54,794 nt of DNA, from contig JANXDM010000002.1 in assembly GCA_025058615.1 (NCBI GenBank), positions 1 through 54,794 on the forward strand, written 5' to 3'. Of this stretch, positions 23,881 to 35,097 are shown piece after piece. Every line of letters starts with the position of its first letter. The stretch's first letter is position 1. The translations under genes and the position numbers were made by a program. The DNA comes from Candidatus Pacearchaeota archaeon. GTDB taxonomy: Archaea > Nanobdellota > Nanobdellia > Pacearchaeales > UBA284. Below the pieces are notes generated by a model. It saw only the letters and a program-made list of their open reading frames with translations, made no database searches and was not told the origin of the DNA.

Positions 23881-24558
23881 ATGCAAAAAATGTTAATGAA
23901 AAAATCTTCAGATTATACTTTGATAACTTTGCTGCTAGATGCTTCTCAGAAACTTGGTTTAGGCCATGAAGAACTGGGGAAAATTATAGCAAAATGTGTT
24001 TTGGGAGAACCAACCAAGAATTCCTTTGCAAAATTGAAGAACTATCACAGAGAAAGAGCAGAAAAACTGAGGGATAAAATTTATTCTGTTTTGAGGGAGA
24101 TAGAACAAAAAGGTCGAGATCAATATATAAAAAAAATAGAATCAGAAATAAAAAAAAATATAAAAAACATACCATGCGTATCTTCAAATTGGTGGTACAC
24201 TATTTATAGTGTTTTGTTTGAACAGTTTAATTCATACAAAGAAAAACAAGAAAAAGATCTGGGAAAGAAATTCGAGGAATACTATCCAAAAGAAGAAACA
24301 GTTTTGAACGAGTTTTTGAAGAAATTCTTCGAAGAAGGGATAATAACAAAAGTTTTGTTGAATAATGTTCTTAAAAAAGTCTATCCAGTTCAAGTAAAGG
24401 AAGCCACCGGAAAAGAGCAACTAAAATCTATGATAAAAGTGATAAAAGAGGAAGGAAAATCTATAGAAAAAATGCGGGAAGAATACAAAACTTTTATAAA
24501 TACTTTTTTGAATGTTGTTCGTAATTTTGAAAAGCTGGAAAAAATTATTGAGATTTGA
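23881..24558 (+). CDS. Hypothetical helical protein
   Basis: 225-aa ORF, Lys/Glu rich, coherent coding. Confidence 0.55.
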   Translation: MQKMLMKKSSDYTLITLLLDASQKLGLGHEELGKIIAKCVLGEPTKNSFAKLKNYHRERAEKLRDKIYSVLREIEQKGRDQYIKKIESEIKKNIKNIPCVSSNWWYTIYSVLFEQFNSYKEKQEKDLGKKFEEYYPKEETVLNEFLKKFFEEGIITKVLLNNVLKKVYPVQVKEATGKEQLKSMIKVIKEEGKSIEKMREEYKTFINTFLNVVRNFEKLEKIIEI

Positions 24559-25051
24559 ATTGCATCAAATTCATCAAATTTTCTTTTTTGCTTAACAAGA
24601 TTTTACCATCCATGTCGATGTGCAATCTGAGCATGTCGAGGCTGGAAAGTATTACAATTATGTTCCATACTTGTTTGTTTTCATGTCTTTGTAAAATAGC
24701 AACAACTTCTTGAATTTCTGAGAAAATTTTTTGTTTTTTCATTTCTTCTGCAAGAATTTTTTCTATATCTTTGATATCTACTTTTATATTTTTTTTCAGG
24801 GCTTGAAAATTTTCGACTGGTCTTTCTAATATATCTTGCTTTGATTTAACTTCATCATTTTGCATAAAGAACGTTTTTATTTTGGTTTTTCCTACTAAAT
24901 AGTCTATTTGCTCACATTCTACTAATAAGTTCCCAAAAGCTTTTCGAAAGGTGAAGAAGGCGCTGTATAGTTTGGCTGTAGGATTATTTTTTTTAAATTT
25001 ATAAAATTCTTTACTGGATTCGACTTTTTTCAAAAGTTCTTTGAAAGACAT
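24545..25051 (-). CDS. Hypothetical protein
   Basis: 168-aa ORF convergent with the preceding gene. Confidence 0.55.
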   Translation of the reverse strand: MSFKELLKKVESSKEFYKFKKNNPTAKLYSAFFTFRKAFGNLLVECEQIDYLVGKTKIKTFFMQNDEVKSKQDILERPVENFQALKKNIKVDIKDIEKILAEEMKKQKIFSEIQEVVAILQRHENKQVWNIIVILSSLDMLRLHIDMDGKILLSKKENLMNLMQFKSQ

Positions 25052-25361: not shown

Positions 25362-27014
25362 TTACAGAAGTTTTTTAATTTCTGTTTGTTCCTTCAATTT
25401 TTTTATGAAATCTTCAAGCTTGATTCCGAATTCTGGTTTTTTGTTCCTTGGTCTTACTGCTAGCGTATTGGTTTTTTCTTCTTTGTCGCCTATCACGACT
25501 ATGTAAGGAATTTTTTGCAATTCTGCCTCACGAATTTTATAATCTAAAGTAACATCCTCGAAATCTGTTTCTATTCTGAAGCCTTCTTGCTTTAACCTTT
25601 CAGCTATTTTTTTCGCAGTTTCAACGTTTCTTTTTGTAAAACTCAAAACTCTAATTTGCACAGGAGAAAGCCACAAAGGAAAAGCCCCGTTGTAGTGTTC
25701 TGTCAAAATACCTATGAAACGCTCTATCGAACCAAATATAGTTCTGTGGATTATTTTTACGGTGTGCTGCTTGTTGTCTTTCCCCGTATATTTTAGTTCG
25801 AATTTTTCTGGCATGAAGAAATCTACTTGAATTGTGGCACATTGCCACTCTCTCCCTTGAGAATCTTTTATATGAAAGTCTATCTTCGGGCCGTAGAAGG
25901 CTCCTTCTCCTGGGTTCAACTTGAATTCTAACTTCAGTTTTTTGAGAGCATTTTGGAGTGCTTTTTCTGCGGCAGTCCATTTTTCTTTTGTTCCTATATG
26001 TTCTTTTGGCATTGTTGATAGCTCTATTCTGTAAGAAAAGCCAAATACACAATATATTCTTTGAATAAGTCTAATAATGTTCATTATTTCTTCTTCAAGT
26101 TGCTCTTCTGTGCAAAAAATATGGGCATCATCTTGCGTAATTTGCCAAACCCTAAACATTCCTGCAAGAACTCCTGAAAGTTCTTTTCTGTGAACTATAC
26201 CAAGTTCTGCAAATCTTAGCGGAAGCTCTTTGTAGCTTCTCGGTTTTAGTTTGAAAAGAAGTATTGCTCCGGGGCAATTCATCGGCTTGAGTGCAAATTC
26301 TTCGTTTGCTGCAGAAGTAAGAAACATATTTTCTTTGTAGTAATCCCAATGTCCTGATATTTTCCACAATTTCTTTGACATTAGTTGAGGGGTGCTTATT
26401 TCTTTGTATCCTTCTTTTTCGTGTTCTTTTCGCCAAAAATTTATTAACAAGTTTCTTAATATTACTCCTTTTGGATGCCAAAAAACACAGCCTGGAGAAA
26501 CTTCATTGAAACTGAAGAGGTCAAGCCTGCTTCCTAGAATCCTGTGGTCTTGTGGTGAGAGTTTACTTTTATCTAGGATGATCTTTCTTAGTTTTTCTTT
26601 TTTTTCTTCAGGAGTTATTTCTCTACTTAGTTCTGCAAGAGGGTGTCCTTTACATTTCAATTCGAATTCTTTGTACCAACCAAAGGGAGCTTTCTTTACG
26701 TCGAAGTGTTTTTTCAAAGCTTTTTCTGTTTTTTCAAGAATTTTTGAAGCAATTTCCGGCCTGGCTAGTCTGGAACTTAGGTGCGCGTAAGGATAAAGAA
26801 CTATCTTTTTACATTTTACTTTTGATGCGATTTCTTTTATGTTTTCAACTAATTTTTCGACCAATTCTTCGTTGTCGTTCTCTTCTACAGTTGTTAAAAC
26901 AACAAGACATTCTCTTTCTATAGTCTCTTTTTTTTCTGTTTTTTCTGCTCCTTTTATTGCTTCCTTGACGGGCTTGAACTTGATGTAGTCGCAATGCAAT
27001 GTTAATATCTTCAT
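25362..27014 (-). CDS. thrS: Threonyl-tRNA synthetase (archaeal editing domain type)
   Basis: N-terminal MKILTLHCDYIKFKP archaeal ThrRS editing domain; class II motifs, KPMNCPGAI, FRVWQITQDDAHIFC, HRTIFGSIERFIGILTEHYNGAFPLWLSPVQ. Confidence 0.96.
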   Translation of the reverse strand: MKILTLHCDYIKFKPVKEAIKGAEKTEKKETIERECLVVLTTVEENDNEELVEKLVENIKEIASKVKCKKIVLYPYAHLSSRLARPEIASKILEKTEKALKKHFDVKKAPFGWYKEFELKCKGHPLAELSREITPEEKKEKLRKIILDKSKLSPQDHRILGSRLDLFSFNEVSPGCVFWHPKGVILRNLLINFWRKEHEKEGYKEISTPQLMSKKLWKISGHWDYYKENMFLTSAANEEFALKPMNCPGAILLFKLKPRSYKELPLRFAELGIVHRKELSGVLAGMFRVWQITQDDAHIFCTEEQLEEEIMNIIRLIQRIYCVFGFSYRIELSTMPKEHIGTKEKWTAAEKALQNALKKLKLEFKLNPGEGAFYGPKIDFHIKDSQGREWQCATIQVDFFMPEKFELKYTGKDNKQHTVKIIHRTIFGSIERFIGILTEHYNGAFPLWLSPVQIRVLSFTKRNVETAKKIAERLKQEGFRIETDFEDVTLDYKIREAELQKIPYIVVIGDKEEKTNTLAVRPRNKKPEFGIKLEDFIKKLKEQTEIKKLL

Positions 27015-27058
27015 TGAAAAAGCAAGCACGGGGTATTTATAAAATTTTAGAATTTTGA

Positions 27059-27685
27059 TTATTTAGGCTCTATTTTTTGAATTTCAGAAAAAGGAATAAA
27101 AATAGTTGCAGTACTATCCCATCTGGTAATCCTGTAACCTATGTTGTTGCTTTCATAAAATTTCTTTAATTTTTCTTGTTTACCATTCTTAATGTAATAG
27201 GCGCTCGAAGGATCCTCTCCAACGATTTCCCATTTATCTGCATCAAAATGTTGTAATGGGAAACAGTCAATATATCCTTGGACGCGATCTCCATTTTTCA
27301 AGTCAACAATACAATAATCATTTCCTATATAAACTACAGAAACCTCATCAGCATTAATAGAGAATTGATATTCTTCCAACAAATATAATTTATTTTCTTT
27401 TTTCGTAGAGTAAAGAACTTTGTATCTTGGATGGTTTCTTTCTTCCTCTGATAAATCTTTTGGTATTGTAAGTTTTATTTTATTAGAAACTTTTGTTTGT
27501 TTCTCTGTTTTTATTATAGGATTTCCATAGAGGTCATAAGAATGAAGTTCTACTAGATATTCGAGTTTCAATCGTGCATTTTTAACATAAATTTCTTGGT
27601 CGTTGTTTAGTGTTACTAACCAACATGAGCCTAGCCCAACAAGCGGCGCCAAGAGTAGTTTCAAAATTTTTTCTTTCAATCCCAT
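27059..27685 (-). CDS. Hypothetical putative lipoprotein
   Basis: N-terminal MGLKEKILKLLLAPLVGLGSC lipobox-like; stop is 7 bp from neighbouring gene in same operon. Confidence 0.5.
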   Translation of the reverse strand: MGLKEKILKLLLAPLVGLGSCWLVTLNNDQEIYVKNARLKLEYLVELHSYDLYGNPIIKTEKQTKVSNKIKLTIPKDLSEEERNHPRYKVLYSTKKENKLYLLEEYQFSINADEVSVVYIGNDYCIVDLKNGDRVQGYIDCFPLQHFDADKWEIVGEDPSSAYYIKNGKQEKLKKFYESNNIGYRITRWDSTATIFIPFSEIQKIEPK

Positions 27686-27691
27686 TTTTCG

Positions 27692-28813
27692 TTATCTTAT
27701 TTGATGGCCTTTTATAATTGTTTTTCCTTCGTGGATATATGTATTTCCGTCTTTTTGGATTTCTTCGGCAAAAACCTTGAACTTGATACCTGTAATTTTT
27801 AGGTTTTCAAACTCATCTCGGGGAATAGGATAGATCAAAATAAGAGGAAGTGTCTCGTCAGGGTATAGTTTATCATCGTAGACCCATACCATATCAATTA
27901 GGCCCCTTTTCTTTAACAATTCTTCTAAGCCGTATCTTCCAGTAATTTGAAACCTGGAGGTAGGATTAACAGTTATTGGTCGCGATACTCCAACTAAATA
28001 AGGTAAACATTTACCTTTTCTTATCTCATCTAAGTTTAAAGGATATTTGCCGTTGTTTGTAATTTTCACGTGAGCAAAAAGATATCTCGTTGTGTTATGA
28101 ATTGTTACAACAGAATCGACCTCTATTTTTGGGATTTCTATTTTCAAATCTCCGTATTCTGCTTCTTCCCAATAGTGATATTCTTTGTTGGTGTTATATT
28201 TTTCTGTTTCTTGTCGATTTCTGTAGCTATTCTCACGTGTTCTATTTTCTTCTAAATCTTCTAAGTTCTCCTCATTTTTTCTTTCTTCCTGCTTACCATT
28301 ACGACCATCGTCGTTTAGATCATAAGATTCCTCCATCCCTTCCGATATTATCGATGGTACCTCTTCTTCTTTTTCTTTCGCTGTTGTATCTTTTTTGCTT
28401 TTGTGGTACTTTACCCATTGTCCAATTACAGGATCATAGTATTCTCCTAATATATACCTTTTTTCTATCTCGTCGAAAACAAGCTTATTAATTCCACCAC
28501 GTCCACCTACAAAAATATCATTATACTTTCTGCCGATCCAAATACTATCCCCACACCATCTTCCTATTTCTTTTCCCGTCTCTCCGTCTATTATAATGAA
28601 TTCGTAGTTAGGAGACGTCGAGCCGCCAATTCCAGAGCTTCTTTTTATGATTTCATCAAATCCATCTCCATTCAGATCAACTTTACTAACAATTTCTAGA
28701 TCGTTTTCGTTTTTGATAAGTTTTTTTTGAAGGCCATGCCTCAAAGTTAAATATCCTCCAATACCGATGAGGCCCCCAAGAAATAAAGCAAAAAGAGTTT
28801 TTTTAAGTGGCAT
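27692..28813 (-). CDS. Membrane-anchored protein with FG-GAP/VCBS-like motif
   Basis: N-terminal hydrophobic anchor; VSKVDLNGDGFDEIIKRSSGIGG and YDLNDDGRNG Ca-binding-like motifs. Confidence 0.55.
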   Translation of the reverse strand: MPLKKTLFALFLGGLIGIGGYLTLRHGLQKKLIKNENDLEIVSKVDLNGDGFDEIIKRSSGIGGSTSPNYEFIIIDGETGKEIGRWCGDSIWIGRKYNDIFVGGRGGINKLVFDEIEKRYILGEYYDPVIGQWVKYHKSKKDTTAKEKEEEVPSIISEGMEESYDLNDDGRNGKQEERKNEENLEDLEENRTRENSYRNRQETEKYNTNKEYHYWEEAEYGDLKIEIPKIEVDSVVTIHNTTRYLFAHVKITNNGKYPLNLDEIRKGKCLPYLVGVSRPITVNPTSRFQITGRYGLEELLKKRGLIDMVWVYDDKLYPDETLPLILIYPIPRDEFENLKITGIKFKVFAEEIQKDGNTYIHEGKTIIKGHQIR

Positions 28814-28958
28814 TTTATTTTTATTTTGTTCGTTTATATTTTCAAACCTCTTAAATCTTTACCGATAGCACGCTATTTCAGTTTTATATTTTAATAGACT
28901 TTTCTTTTTTAAACTTTTTCATACAAAATTTTAAATATCCTTTTGGCTTCTTTCAAGG

Positions 28959-31049
28959 ATGAATCCAAAAACAGCTTTGCTTTTGTTTTTGGTGTTGTTT
29001 GTTTCTTCGGCAGAAGCCAAAATAGTTTTTACGAAACCTTTTAATACTTATAACCTTGGTGACAGGATAGAGCAACAAATCTCTTTAACGAGCAATACTG
29101 GGTTCGAAGGCTTTTTTAGGGTTATGCTTCTTTGCGATGGAAAAGAATTTTTGATTTTTTATTCTCCTGTGATAATACAGCCAGAGAAGGAAAAAATGAT
29201 AGATTTGAGTTTTGTTCACAATGTTACGGGTTCATGTAAATTTTTTGCAACATTAGAAAAAGAAAAAGTGATAGAAAATGCTTTTTCAGAATCTTTTTTG
29301 ATTACTGACGAAATAGTTCTCGATTTGAAATTGAGCAAACAATATTTTTTTCCAGGAAAAAATTTGGAAATTGAAGGGAAAGTGCATAAAAGGAGCGGAG
29401 AGCCTTTTACTGGAAAGGTAGATTTATTCTTTTTTGGTAAAAATTTTTCTACCAGTGTTGTAAAAGGGGAATTTTTTTTCAGGACGGAAATACCGAAGAA
29501 TGCAAAAGCAGGAAGAAATTTTTGCATTGTTAATGTTTCTGACGATTTCGGAAACAAAGGAAGCGCTATTCTTGAGTTTGATGTTGCTTCTGTTCCTTCT
29601 TCTTTAGTAATAGAATTAAATAATGAGACCTTAATTCCTGGAACGCTTCTTGTTGTCGTTCCAAAACTTCTAGACCAGTCAGATACAACAATAAGAGAAA
29701 ATGTTTCTCTGAGAATCTTCAAGGTGGAAGATTTTTTGTTCTTCCAGAAAAAGGAGCTCCTTATCGAAAAGCTTGTGCAAAGCGGGGCTTCTTCTTTTTA
29801 TAGATTCGGAAACTTTTCAGAACCTGGTTATTACATCATAGAAGCTTACTCTCAAGGGTTTAGAACCACAAAAATAGTTTACGTACTTCCGGTGGAAAAA
29901 ATAGACATCAATTTGAGCGGTAACATTTTGGAAGTAAAAAATCTTGGTAATGTTCCATACAAAAAACCTTTAGAAATTAAACTAGAAATGGGGAATTTTT
30001 CCAGAACTCTTGTAATAGATTTAGATTTGGACGTGAACGAGACAAAGATTTTCAAGTTGGAGGCTCCAAAAGGAACTTACGAACTAACTTTTTTGTTGCC
30101 GGAGCAAAAAAAACTACGAACGAACTTAATCGGAAAAGTTGTTGCAGCTGTAGAGTTGGGAAAGGAAAGAAAAAAGGATTATTCTTGGGTCGTTCTTGTT
30201 ATTGCTCTTGGGTTAGCCTCTTTTTTTGTAGCAAGAAAGTTGCTCAAGAAAAAAGTCAAGAAAAATTTAAAAAAGCAAAGCGTGAAAATTTTAAAAGAAA
30301 AGAAATCAAAAGAAGTCAGAGAAAAAATGCCAGTACAGCTTTTTTTTGGCGAGACTCCTACCGAGGATGATCCTTTCAAGAAAATTTTCTTAAAGAATTC
30401 TTCACAATTTGCGGCCCCATATCTCGAAAGGGCAAAACTAGTAGGTGCAGCAAAAAAACAAGTAAGCGTCGTTGCTTGTAATTTGCGTAATTTTTTTGAA
30501 TTGGAAAATCTGAGGAAGAAAAATACAATTCAATTCGAAAGAATAATCAACAATTTCTTTCAAAGTTTAATAAAGATAGTAAGAAGTTATGGTGGTGTTC
30601 TCGATTATAACAAAAATGAAATTTTAATTTTCTTCTTGAAAGAAGATCAAGAGCTGAATGCTGTTAAAGTAGCAAATGAGTTGAGAGTATTTGTTACTAA
30701 ATTCAACGAGGAATTAAAGAAAGAAGGAATAGAATTTGAGTTGTCTTCTGGTTTTGGGGTTAACTCTGGCCTTCTAGCTTTTTCAGAAAGTGAAAAAGTA
30801 ATTAGATACGAAGAAAGCGAGACTACTAAAATTTCAAGAGCGCTTTCCAAAAAAGCTTTCGATGGAGAAGTTTTGCTCGCGAGTAGCATTTACATAAAAA
30901 TAGGTTCTTTGATTAATGTAAAGAGAATTACCCCTCTTTATCTCGATGAAAGAAGAGCAGTGGAATGCTTTCTTTTGCAACAACCTTCCCCTTCTGAAAT
31001 AAAATCTCTGCAACAAGGCCGTGTAAGAAAATTTCTTGAAAGTCTTTGA
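28959..31049 (+). CDS. Membrane receptor-like protein: secreted N-terminal beta domains, single TM, cytoplasmic class III nucleotidyl cyclase homology domain (degenerate catalytic residues)
   Basis: Signal peptide; TM WVVLVIALGLASFFVARKLL; VSVVACNLRNFFELENLRKK..IINNFFQSLIKIVRSYGGVLDYNKNEILIFF..NAVKVANELRVF..LSSGFGVNSGLLAF..TTKISRALSKKAFDGEVLLASSIYIKIG aligns by eye with the class III cyclase fold. Confidence 0.75.
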   Translation: MNPKTALLLFLVLFVSSAEAKIVFTKPFNTYNLGDRIEQQISLTSNTGFEGFFRVMLLCDGKEFLIFYSPVIIQPEKEKMIDLSFVHNVTGSCKFFATLEKEKVIENAFSESFLITDEIVLDLKLSKQYFFPGKNLEIEGKVHKRSGEPFTGKVDLFFFGKNFSTSVVKGEFFFRTEIPKNAKAGRNFCIVNVSDDFGNKGSAILEFDVASVPSSLVIELNNETLIPGTLLVVVPKLLDQSDTTIRENVSLRIFKVEDFLFFQKKELLIEKLVQSGASSFYRFGNFSEPGYYIIEAYSQGFRTTKIVYVLPVEKIDINLSGNILEVKNLGNVPYKKPLEIKLEMGNFSRTLVIDLDLDVNETKIFKLEAPKGTYELTFLLPEQKKLRTNLIGKVVAAVELGKERKKDYSWVVLVIALGLASFFVARKLLKKKVKKNLKKQSVKILKEKKSKEVREKMPVQLFFGETPTEDDPFKKIFLKNSSQFAAPYLERAKLVGAAKKQVSVVACNLRNFFELENLRKKNTIQFERIINNFFQSLIKIVRSYGGVLDYNKNEILIFFLKEDQELNAVKVANELRVFVTKFNEELKKEGIEFELSSGFGVNSGLLAFSESEKVIRYEESETTKISRALSKKAFDGEVLLASSIYIKIGSLINVKRITPLYLDERRAVECFLLQQPSPSEIKSLQQGRVRKFLESL

Positions 31050-31124
31050 TTAAAAATTTTGAAAATTCAAGAAAAGTTTTTCTACAAAGAAAAACTTTAA
31101 AAATGTTCTTTCTTGCTTACAAAC

Positions 31125-31745
31125 ATGAAAAAGAGTGAGAAAATAGAAAAAATTTTACTGGAAATAGCAATTCAACTAGCAAGAGAAGGAAAAGGAGCAT
31201 TGTTTGTGGTTAATGATAAAGTAAAATACAAGAGATTGTTCCAACAAAGGATCAAGCCTTTCAGTGTTTTCAGCAAGGGGGCGCAAAAAATTTTGAAAAG
31301 CATAGCCCCGTTAGATGGAGCTGTGATTATTACTTCTGAAGGAATAGTGAAAGATTATGGAGCGATGATAGAGACAAAAAAAACTTTCAAAGGATTTGGA
31401 ACAAGGCATAGCGCTGCCTTTACTGCCTCGGAAGGAGGGATAGCTATTCTATGCTCAGAAGAAGAGAAAAAAGTAAGAATTTTCAAAGATGGGAAATATG
31501 TAATGCAGTTGGATCCTCTACAAAAGGGGGTAGAAGCAAAAGTTCCTGCTGTGGTTTCTGTCTTAGAAGTAATAGGAGCCGGAACAGTCGGAACCGTAGG
31601 AGTAATGACGATAGCCCCGCATGCCGGAATTGCTTTTTTACCAGGGGTCTTAATTTTTGGGGTTAGCTATTATGCTTTGAAAAAAATAGCAGAAACTTTG
31701 AATTTGAAAGAATTATTAAGAAAAGCAAAAATAAAAATTGATTAA
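31125..31745 (+). CDS. DisA_N/DacZ-type diadenylate cyclase (c-di-AMP synthase) with C-terminal hydrophobic tail
   Basis: LDGAVIITSEG (DGA motif) and FGTRHSAAFTASEGGIAILCSEE (GTRHxxA motif); C-terminal hydrophobic segments VVSVLEVIGAGTVGTVGVMTIA and GIAFLPGVLIFGVSYYAL. Confidence 0.88.
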   Translation: MKKSEKIEKILLEIAIQLAREGKGALFVVNDKVKYKRLFQQRIKPFSVFSKGAQKILKSIAPLDGAVIITSEGIVKDYGAMIETKKTFKGFGTRHSAAFTASEGGIAILCSEEEKKVRIFKDGKYVMQLDPLQKGVEAKVPAVVSVLEVIGAGTVGTVGVMTIAPHAGIAFLPGVLIFGVSYYALKKIAETLNLKELLRKAKIKID

Positions 31746-31764: not shown

Positions 31765-34700
31765 TCAAAATTTTTTCTTTTTTAACAATAAGCTTACAGC
31801 TAGTGCAGCTCCAGCTGTTATCAAGATAATTAAAATCCCTACTGAAGTTTTTGCAGATCCTATCGCGGCTCCTGTGATTGTGTCGGTTTTTTCAATTTCA
31901 TCTGTGATTATTTTTGTTTTTTCTCTTGCTTCTTCTGATGGGCATACTTCCTTCTCTTTAGGTTTCTCTCGTGTTGTTCCGCATTCGTTTATGTCTTTAC
32001 ATGTTCTGTACATGTATCCAGAAACGCAAGGACCCCAAGGAGAGCATATCCAATTTTCCTTACATTCTTTTTCGAGTTTAGGAAATTCTCCTCCACGAAC
32101 ACCAGGCGTTGTTCCTGTTCTTGGGGTATAACAATTACTTGCATCGATGATGCAGTTTTTGCACTTTAGAGTTCCGTGCGTGTGACCGAAATCTCTACAA
32201 GTCAAACCTCCGAAATCATTTCCATCACATTCTTCATCAAATTCTTTTATGTTGTTTCCGCAATAAGCCCCTTTTGGTCCTCTTGGTTTGAATGTTATTT
32301 TGTTTCCTGCAACTTCTATGTCGAATGCGCTGTTTATTTCGTTTCTAGGCTTTTCTTCATTATCAAATCCAATTCCTATAACATACTTGAGTTCAGAGCA
32401 TCTTGGCGTAGAGTTTGGTGCCTCGAATTCTAACGTAACAGAACCGTTTTTTGGATTGTTGTTTCTTGGTCCTATCATAAGGCTTGTTTCATCAAAGTTC
32501 CCGTTCCAAGGGAATCTAAGTTCTTCGACATCTTTTGAGCTTGTAGCGTTTTTTAGTACAGGGTTGAGCCATTCACCACCGTTGGGGCCGCAAAGCTTTT
32601 CCATTTGCATTGCTACTGCATTTCCTCCATGGCATAAATACATCAAATAGCCGAAAGATGCTGTTTCATTACTTCCTATTTTTAAAGTCACTGATTCTGG
32701 GTGTACATACCAGAAAACATCATATTGTAGTGTGATGTTTCTTTCTTCTGTATTGTTGTTTCCTAAATTATCATAAGCAATTACTCTTACTTTGTACTCT
32801 CCAGCAGGATAAAGGTGATTAATTTTTCCTTCCCATTTTTTTTGCTTGTATTGAAGTTGTACTCTTTCCAAAACATGGCCTGTTAAATTTACTAATTCTG
32901 CATCCACTTTTGAATGGTTTACGCTAGACCCATCATCGAAAATAGTTGCACGAACGCTAAAAGTAAATAGCTCACAACCTATTTCTGCATTCTCTGAAGG
33001 ATTTATTATTGTTATTGTAGGAGGGGTATTGTCTAGATAGTGTGTTTGATTTTTTGTAGGTTCTCTGTTGTTAAGTTTGTCGAAACTCCAATAGTATAAA
33101 TTGTACCGACCATCTGCAAGGTCATTATCGAAAGTTAAGTTGTAAGGAGCTATATGGCAACCGCTTTGCTGTACTCCAGATTCATTGCTGATTTCATAAC
33201 AAGTTTCATAACATCCAACTCCAGAGTCAGAGCAGTTTAATTCGATCTTGGTATTACTTGAAACAAAAGAGCTATAATTCATATAAAGTTTCTTCGTTGT
33301 TTCCGGCGGTGTATTGTCTAAATAGTGCTTTTGTGTATTGGTTGCTTCCTGGTTTCCAAGTTTATCAACAGAATACCATTGCAATATATAATTTCCATCA
33401 CTTCCCCTGATATTGAAAGTTGTTTTGTTTCCTTCTGCTTTTATCCATGTTCCATTGTAGTTATACATTATATAATCGCAACCTATACCTTTATCGTTGC
33501 ATACTAAAGTTATGCTCGTATTGCTTGTTATGTAATAATTGTTAACATTTGGTGTTCCTACTTCCTTTGTTGTCGTAGGGGCTGTTGTGTCTATATTGTA
33601 TGTTTTTGAGTCTGTTTTATAATTGCATGCGTAATCTATTGCTTTTTTTGTGACAATGCATTGTCCGTCATTACAATCTTCAGGAACTTTCACACTTATA
33701 TTTTTGTTGCATGTGGTTTCTATCCAGTTTCCATCGTTTATTTTGTAGTAACACTTCCACAAACCAAGATTATCAGACTCTGCCTCGCTTACTTCGAATG
33801 TCTTGTTGAACCAAGTTCCATCCTCAGGCGCAATGATCTCTATTTCTGGGGCTTCTGTGTCGTACCACACTTTTTCGCTTTCATTCCATGGCCCTAAGTT
33901 ACCAGCTCTGTCGACTGCTCTTACTTTTATATAATAATTCATTCCACTTGTAGGACTAGGAACACTTATAGTTGTTGATGTTGTTTTTCCTTTTGAATAC
34001 AAACTTCCATTTTGATAAATTTCGTATTCGTAATAATCTATTCCTGCACATCCTGCATCTGTCGCGCTCCAGGAGAACCTTGGAGATTCATTTACGTAAT
34101 TTGGAACACAATTACTAGGATTTGCATGCCAAACATTAATCGCACTTGGCGTAGATGTGTCGACACAAACGTCACAACAGTCGTCTGGGTAGGTTATGTT
34201 TTCCAAATTTTTTGCAGAATCTTTTGCAAGACCACATAGAGTGTGCCAGCCTTCTTGAAGCCAGCCGTCAAAATTCGGATCTGTGTGCCAGATCTCTGTG
34301 ATGTCGTTGTCATTGCAAGAACCGTCATTACATACAGCATTCCTCGTTGCCAAATTATCCCATTTATATTGTATGTTAATTATGGAGCTATTTCCAGAAC
34401 CAGCGTCGCTAGAAATTCCATTACCAATAACTTGGGTGTAGTTAACATATGCTTTATAATTTGTACAATTTCTTCTGTTGTAAGTTTCGTTGTATTGGGT
34501 GAAGTGAGTTATGTTCGTGTCAGGTTCTTGGGTGTCGTTTTGTGGAGGCTGTATAATTTCATAAATAACTGTTAACTTTACCAAATCATGTTGTGTTTTT
34601 GCTCCTCTTCCATCTCTTGCTTGGAAATAAACTTTCAAGTTGTTTATATCTTCTGTTGTGTTTATGTAATCGAGATCTATAGTAATTGTATGGTCTTGAT

Positions 34701-35097
34701 TTGGGAATGGTGCTGAAATTGCGTGCCATGGTCCCCAGTTACCTGTACTATGGTCCCATACTCGTAGTCTTGCTTCTGGCTCTACAGTTCCCGTCCTTTG
34801 CCATTCGAATGTTAAAAAAACATCATTTACAATTACATTAGATAAATTCCCTGTAAAGTTCCATTGGATATATTCATTAGTATAGTTGCTCGGCCAGAAG
34901 CCGTCGCTTCCGTATCTATTGTCATCACTCGAATTAACTTTTGCCAGATCTGCAGTAGTCATTATATAACCAGAAGCATTTTGCGTTGTATCTATGCCCC
35001 ATGTAGGATAAAGATCTATTGTTGCTGCAGAAACAGCTTGAAAAAGAAATACTGCTATCAAGAGCCATGCACTAGCAAACAAAAACCTCTTTTTCAT
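31765..35097 (-). CDS. Large secreted surface protein with Ig-like repeats, Cys-rich and thrombospondin-1-like segments, C-terminal TM
   Basis: Repeated 'NTQKHYLDNTPPETTKK' / 'NQTHYLDNTPPTI' units; CGNNIKEFDEECDGNDFGGLTC; WICSPWGPCVSGYMYRTCKDINECGT; C-terminal TM + KKKKF. Confidence 0.75.
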   Translation of the reverse strand: MKKRFLFASAWLLIAVFLFQAVSAATIDLYPTWGIDTTQNASGYIMTTADLAKVNSSDDNRYGSDGFWPSNYTNEYIQWNFTGNLSNVIVNDVFLTFEWQRTGTVEPEARLRVWDHSTGNWGPWHAISAPFPNQDHTITIDLDYINTTEDINNLKVYFQARDGRGAKTQHDLVKLTVIYEIIQPPQNDTQEPDTNITHFTQYNETYNRRNCTNYKAYVNYTQVIGNGISSDAGSGNSSIINIQYKWDNLATRNAVCNDGSCNDNDITEIWHTDPNFDGWLQEGWHTLCGLAKDSAKNLENITYPDDCCDVCVDTSTPSAINVWHANPSNCVPNYVNESPRFSWSATDAGCAGIDYYEYEIYQNGSLYSKGKTTSTTISVPSPTSGMNYYIKVRAVDRAGNLGPWNESEKVWYDTEAPEIEIIAPEDGTWFNKTFEVSEAESDNLGLWKCYYKINDGNWIETTCNKNISVKVPEDCNDGQCIVTKKAIDYACNYKTDSKTYNIDTTAPTTTKEVGTPNVNNYYITSNTSITLVCNDKGIGCDYIMYNYNGTWIKAEGNKTTFNIRGSDGNYILQWYSVDKLGNQEATNTQKHYLDNTPPETTKKLYMNYSSFVSSNTKIELNCSDSGVGCYETCYEISNESGVQQSGCHIAPYNLTFDNDLADGRYNLYYWSFDKLNNREPTKNQTHYLDNTPPTITIINPSENAEIGCELFTFSVRATIFDDGSSVNHSKVDAELVNLTGHVLERVQLQYKQKKWEGKINHLYPAGEYKVRVIAYDNLGNNNTEERNITLQYDVFWYVHPESVTLKIGSNETASFGYLMYLCHGGNAVAMQMEKLCGPNGGEWLNPVLKNATSSKDVEELRFPWNGNFDETSLMIGPRNNNPKNGSVTLEFEAPNSTPRCSELKYVIGIGFDNEEKPRNEINSAFDIEVAGNKITFKPRGPKGAYCGNNIKEFDEECDGNDFGGLTCRDFGHTHGTLKCKNCIIDASNCYTPRTGTTPGVRGGEFPKLEKECKENWICSPWGPCVSGYMYRTCKDINECGTTREKPKEKEVCPSEEAREKTKIITDEIEKTDTITGAAIGSAKTSVGILIILITAGAALAVSLLLKKKKF

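Follow-up and report, generated by a model that had tools for sequence, protein, structure and literature searches.

In DPANN archaea, whose genomes are tiny, few signalling proteins have been recognised, and a locus in a Candidatus Pacearchaeota genome raises the question of whether two putative signalling proteins encoded by neighbouring genes, a membrane receptor and a diadenylate cyclase (DAC), form one pathway. The window analysed here, the whole stretch of 54,794 nucleotides (contig JANXDM010000002.1 of assembly GCA_025058615.1), belongs to a fragmented assembly of 500,610 bases in 51 contigs that is 87.9% complete. A first-pass annotation had proposed that the receptor, which ends in a class III cyclase-like domain, controls a DAC identified as DacZ. 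Both open reading frames are present on the same strand (Table 1), separated by 75 bp if the DAC begins at its likely ATG, or by 63 bp if it begins at an alternative TTG at position 31113, in line with that annotation; the TTG would give a protein of 210 aa, and the ATG gives 206 aa rather than the 207 aa originally counted.

Table 1 Coordinates of the features discussed, in positions of the window
Feature	Coordinates	Strand	Basis or remarks
168-aa protein gene	24545..25051	-	Same conserved block as ThrRS and receptor
ThrRS gene	25362..27029	-	Divergent neighbour of receptor, conserved across order and class
Archaeal TATA-like box TTTAAATA	28930..28937	+	At -29 of receptor ATG
Receptor gene	28959..31049	+	ORF, 696 aa
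Signal peptide/hydrophobic N-terminus, aa 1–25	28959..29033	+	Hydropathy (aa 5–25); AF2 helix 3–15
Ectodomain, aa ~20–402, array of MG/Ig-like β domains	29016..30164	+	Pfam in orthologues, Foldseek, AF2
Transmembrane helix, aa 407–430	30177..30248	+	Hydropathy; AF2 helix 409–428
Predicted pseudo-class III cyclase homology domain, aa 481–696	30399..31046	+	AF2, Foldseek, profile search, residue tally
TATA-like box TTTAAAAA	31096..31103	+	At -29 of DAC ATG; 8/8 match
Short DAC gene	31125..31745	+	ORF, 206 aa from likely ATG; PF02457

Architecture of the receptor

Hydropathy, an AF2 model of the full receptor (mean pLDDT 86) and Foldseek searches all back the domain order originally described, namely a signal peptide, a β-rich ectodomain, a single transmembrane (TM) helix and a C-terminal domain patterned like a class III cyclase. 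The TM helix is followed directly, on its cytoplasmic side, by the stretch KKKVKKNLKK, and the globular part of the cytoplasmic region starts at approximately residue 472, as judged from the AF2 model and hydropathy.

The ectodomain has putative macroglobulin (MG) domains of the alpha-2-macroglobulin/complement family. The window's own ectodomain has no Pfam match; among 33 orthologues, MG2 is matched in 26 and the bait-region family A2M_BRD in 6 (best value overall 3e-12). Foldseek searches with the full receptor model returned complement C3b and A2ML1 as top matches (E 2e-14), with a low global TM-score that is expected because the ectodomain is a flexible array. In contrast to members of that family, the receptor carries only a short array within a 400-residue ectodomain; no thioester domain was seen among the Pfam families matched, the ectodomain being an array of β domains to residue 400 only.

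A class III cyclase fold without its catalytic residues

The AF2 model of the receptor C-domain (mean pLDDT 89.6) matched CyaB (3r5g) in Foldseek with an E value of 2.8e-13 and TM-scores of 0.72/0.79, and the best 50 matches were class III cyclases only. Sequence searches against the PDB agree: the single receptor sequence found Cya2 (2w01) at E 3.8e-5 and a profile of the 33 orthologues found the same entry at E 1.4e-12, while Pfam Guanylate_cyc matched 12 of the 33 orthologues from the order (best value 1.9e-9). The structure search places the modelled C-domain inside the class III nucleotidyl cyclase fold, so the first-pass proposal survives its own refuting condition on this point. The domain shares this fold, together with detectable sequence homology, with CyaB (3r5g), CyaC (1wc-series) and Cya2 (2w01). 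Class III accounts for very few of the adenylate cyclases predicted in archaea (PMC8646023).

Catalytic columns were set by alignment with CyaB and Cya2 and tallied over the 33 orthologues from the order. In the window's receptor, the first and second metal-binding aspartates (D1 and D2) are both replaced by Asn, the transition-state Asn by Lys and the transition-state Arg by Ala, this last column being alignment-dependent, with an Arg present one residue before. The loss of D1 is order-wide: the position is occupied by Lys (12 orthologues), Arg (7), Asn (5), Ser (5), His (2) or Tyr (2), and is Asp in 0 of 33. D2 is Asp in 11 of the 33, the transition-state Asn is kept in 2 and the Arg in 6, and no orthologue from the order has both metal aspartates, or Asn and Arg together. 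The base-selecting Lys and Thr are likewise not retained as a pair. Thus the fold and α/β pattern of the cyclase-like domain stand, whereas the catalytic residues that set class III cyclases apart are absent, a point missed in the first-pass annotation. Judged by residue loss, the domain is a putatively inactive pseudocyclase; on this alignment a canonical cyclase is excluded, since the window's receptor keeps none of D1, D2, Asn and Arg and every orthologue lacks D1.

Cyclase activity could nevertheless persist through non-standard metal ligands, or the domain could pair with a second cyclase domain and contribute its site to that heterodimer. The fold is wholly retained, class III cyclases can act as heterodimers with split site residues, an established arrangement, and the D2 position is still Asp in a third of the orthologues. 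Such activity is highly unlikely, however, given a D1 position that is never acidic, with Lys or Arg there in 19 of the 33 orthologues, and given the loss of the transition-state Asn and Arg as well, which leaves neither half-site complete. No other protein matching PF00211 that could act as a partner class III cyclase was found in the same genome, which at 88% completeness could have one outside the assembly. Two other families of the order encode cyclase-like domains lacking the ectodomain (L151 and L152); their catalytic sets are also incomplete, L151 retaining the first Asp without the second.

Loss of the catalytic residues is compatible with retained nucleotide binding, which counts against a purely relaying domain: the pseudocyclase might bind and sense ATP or another nucleotide without turnover, gating the surface protein from inside. 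The order-wide retention of the fold would suit such a sensor, as would a few conserved positions, for example G17, A88, N103 and G124 of the domain. These are not known ligand-binding positions, however, and with the metal ligands gone and the base-selecting pair not kept, nucleotide sensing is an unlikely function for the domain.

Two receptor-type class III cyclases from other orders of the class (Nanoarchaeia; L153, 7330–9378, and L154, 3039–5405) have a homologous ectodomain, TM helix and cyclase domain, arranged as in the window's receptor. They match PF00211 with E values of 9e-25 and 1e-27, respectively, and keep both aspartates, the Asn and the Arg, as well as an adenylyl-cyclase-type K/T or K/S pair, a full residue set that is missing in the window's order. 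Because these two orthologues are intact, catalysis was probably lost on the way to the window's order, which is the simplest reading; alternatively, L153 and L154 may have gained an intact domain.

Distribution and genomic setting of the receptor

The receptor family is present in 84 of 94 relatives and is a near-universal core gene of the order. With roughly nine in ten of the order's genomes retaining it, such a surface receptor ought to be important for how these archaea sense other cells or attach to them. It is constantly accompanied by a divergent ThrRS gene, TrpRS (in the large family) and the gene for the 168-aa protein, with HAD or TtuA-like genes downstream. Within the order the receptor is divergent from ThrRS or TrpRS and across the class from ThrRS, and the pairing of ThrRS with an ectodomain protein is found in other orders as well. 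Between ThrRS and the receptor, the window encodes two function-unassigned proteins of 208 and 373 aa with hydrophobic N-termini (27059–28813); in other members of the family this interval holds single, different ORFs.

Class-level orthologues that lack the cyclase domain (L155–L169 and L269–L288) end in a tail with the motif Fx(M/L/I)F(D/N/E) in 23 of 34 cases, and the conservation of this motif suggests a common cytosolic docking partner. Given the class-wide pairing with ThrRS and the existence of tail and cyclase variants, the ectodomain protein is, on these comparisons, an ancient one whose cytoplasmic module has apparently been swapped or eroded over time.

The short diadenylate cyclase

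The downstream gene encodes a DAC domain at residues 17–124 (PF02457, E 2.4e-14), preceded by only 16 residues and followed by approximately 80 hydrophobic ones. Its DGA and GTRH motifs are intact and near-invariant in an alignment of 28 homologues, and for this reason the enzyme is probably active, making c-di-AMP. Hydropathy places a C-terminal hydrophobic segment at residues ~138–186; the segment is kept in homologues, and attachment of the protein to the membrane is predicted from it.

Of the earlier assignment to a DisA_N/DacZ domain, the DAC domain and its two motifs hold, and the DacZ identity does not. DacZ is the best NCBIfam match (E 7.6e-12), but it scores 45 bits against a cut-off of 430, and the match begins only at position 128 of the 270-position model. 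In DisA, for its part, the DAC domain is followed by a linker and an HhH DNA-binding domain; this identity was rejected for a protein of 206 aa in which only the ~80 hydrophobic residues lie beyond that domain. An N-terminal PK_C-like domain is the hallmark of the DacZ family (PMC6741144); the window's protein shares with DacZ/CdaZ the domain bearing DGA and GTRH, but lacks the PK_C-like domain and has the C-terminal hydrophobic segment instead, and DacZ was rejected on these grounds together with the bit score. The bacterial membrane diadenylate cyclase CdaA likewise combines a DAC domain with a membrane part, which there consists of N-terminal TM helices (PMC8573169; PMC6741144), whereas the predicted membrane part here is C-terminal (residues 138–186), and this identity was rejected too.

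A second DAC protein of 340–400 aa, DisA-like by eye, occurs in most relatives, either alongside the short one or in its place; it was not found in the window's own assembly, which has the short DAC only. TrkA_C and MscS proteins are types of c-di-AMP target. TrkA_C was found in 3 of the 94 genomes and MscS in 33, neither of them in the window's own genome.

Relationship between the receptor and the diadenylate cyclase

The proposal that the receptor C-domain controls the adjacent DAC, in a receptor-to-c-di-AMP pathway, draws on their shared strand and 75-bp spacing, on the intact DAC motifs and on the C-terminal hydrophobic segment of the DAC, by which both proteins could meet at the membrane. 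Gene distribution argues against it. The short DAC is present in 30 of the 94 relatives, compared with 84 for the receptor, and approximately 55 genomes have the receptor without the short DAC. The two genes are adjacent in the window's genome only: in none of the 29 other relatives with a short DAC, and in none of the 63 GTDB loci retrieved with the DAC, does the receptor lie beside it, one of these loci having a receptor fragment ~6 kb off. G006, a genome in a single contig, encodes the receptor most similar to the window's (42% identity) and lacks DAC genes altogether. A conserved receptor–DAC operon was rejected across these 94 relatives and 63 loci. The first-pass annotation had named a lack of adjacency in related genomes as grounds for dropping its proposal, and no adjacent pair turned up in any related genome searched. 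Within a single family, the short DAC of several genomes does lie ~6–30 kb from the receptor, but the side differs between genomes and the two are never direct neighbours, a pattern resembling loosely shared synteny.

The nearest relatives of the DAC lie in a different setting. In G008, of the same family, the gene is on a different contig from the receptor, between IscS- and IscU-like genes, and in G002, also of the same family (L084), it is beside a cysteine desulfurase, the only Fe–S partner shown there. Three further loci (L206, 4567–6989; L209, 4469–7195; L220) contain an Fe–S assembly cluster in the order IscS/NifS, small ORF, DAC, IscU-like. By this comparison of gene order, the window's DAC has departed from the Fe–S assembly context of its nearest relatives. 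Downstream of it, a convergent gene (31765–35097) encodes a surface protein of 1110 aa that has a TM helix at its C-terminus. In G006 a homologue of this surface protein comes after the receptor, with no DAC between them, an arrangement that fits insertion of the DAC in the window's lineage.

The DAC is also likely to have a promoter of its own. The spacing of TTTAAAAA from the DAC start equals that of the receptor's box and of the boxes of several other genes, and the chance of a box of this type in five positions is 0.4% at the window frequency or ~2% at the intergenic frequency. Against full independence of the two genes, the shared strand and 75-bp distance make read-through co-transcription possible.

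Coupling of the receptor to the DAC is therefore not supported, because the adjacency occurs in this genome only, a TATA-like box of its own precedes the DAC, and G006 lacks a DAC. Control of the DAC by the receptor is the least supported of the rival explanations and very improbable, and a false lead is thereby removed: there is no evidence here for a receptor-to-c-di-AMP pathway.

Proposed functions of the two proteins

We consider it likely that the locus consists of two independent adjoining genes, one for a pseudocyclase surface receptor, which most likely serves as a non-catalytic relay or scaffold, and the other for a separately promoted, membrane-attached DAC. In the receptor, macroglobulin-type domains would form an exported array, joined by a single membrane helix to a cytoplasmic pseudocyclase unable to cyclise nucleotides. 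The class III cyclase fold is normally dimeric, and extracellular contact or strain may alter how the pseudocyclase dimerises, so that it would then offer a docking surface to a cytosolic partner. Other orders would use a short tail with FxMFD at its end, or an intact adenylyl-cyclase-type domain, for the same purpose. The DAC, with its own promoter and predicted membrane attachment, would make c-di-AMP from ATP, and its place beside the receptor would be a lineage-specific relocation.

An order-wide pseudocyclase receptor with a macroglobulin ectodomain, acting as a non-catalytic relay or scaffold, is probably new; a literature search on pseudocyclases, DPANN cyclases and DPANN macroglobulins found nothing relevant. 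A more far-reaching scenario, which we put forward only tentatively, starts from an ancestral adenylyl cyclase of the receptor type that bore a macroglobulin ectodomain. This Pacearchaeota order would have converted it into a near-universal non-catalytic receptor, whose pseudocyclase signals contact at the surface, possibly with host cells, to a partner in the cytosol and takes the place of the FxMFD docking tail of the sister orders. The intact cyclase, the apparently dead cyclase and the short tail form a natural series of cytoplasmic modules on one homologous ectodomain, against which ideas on how a pseudoenzyme receptor evolves can be tested.
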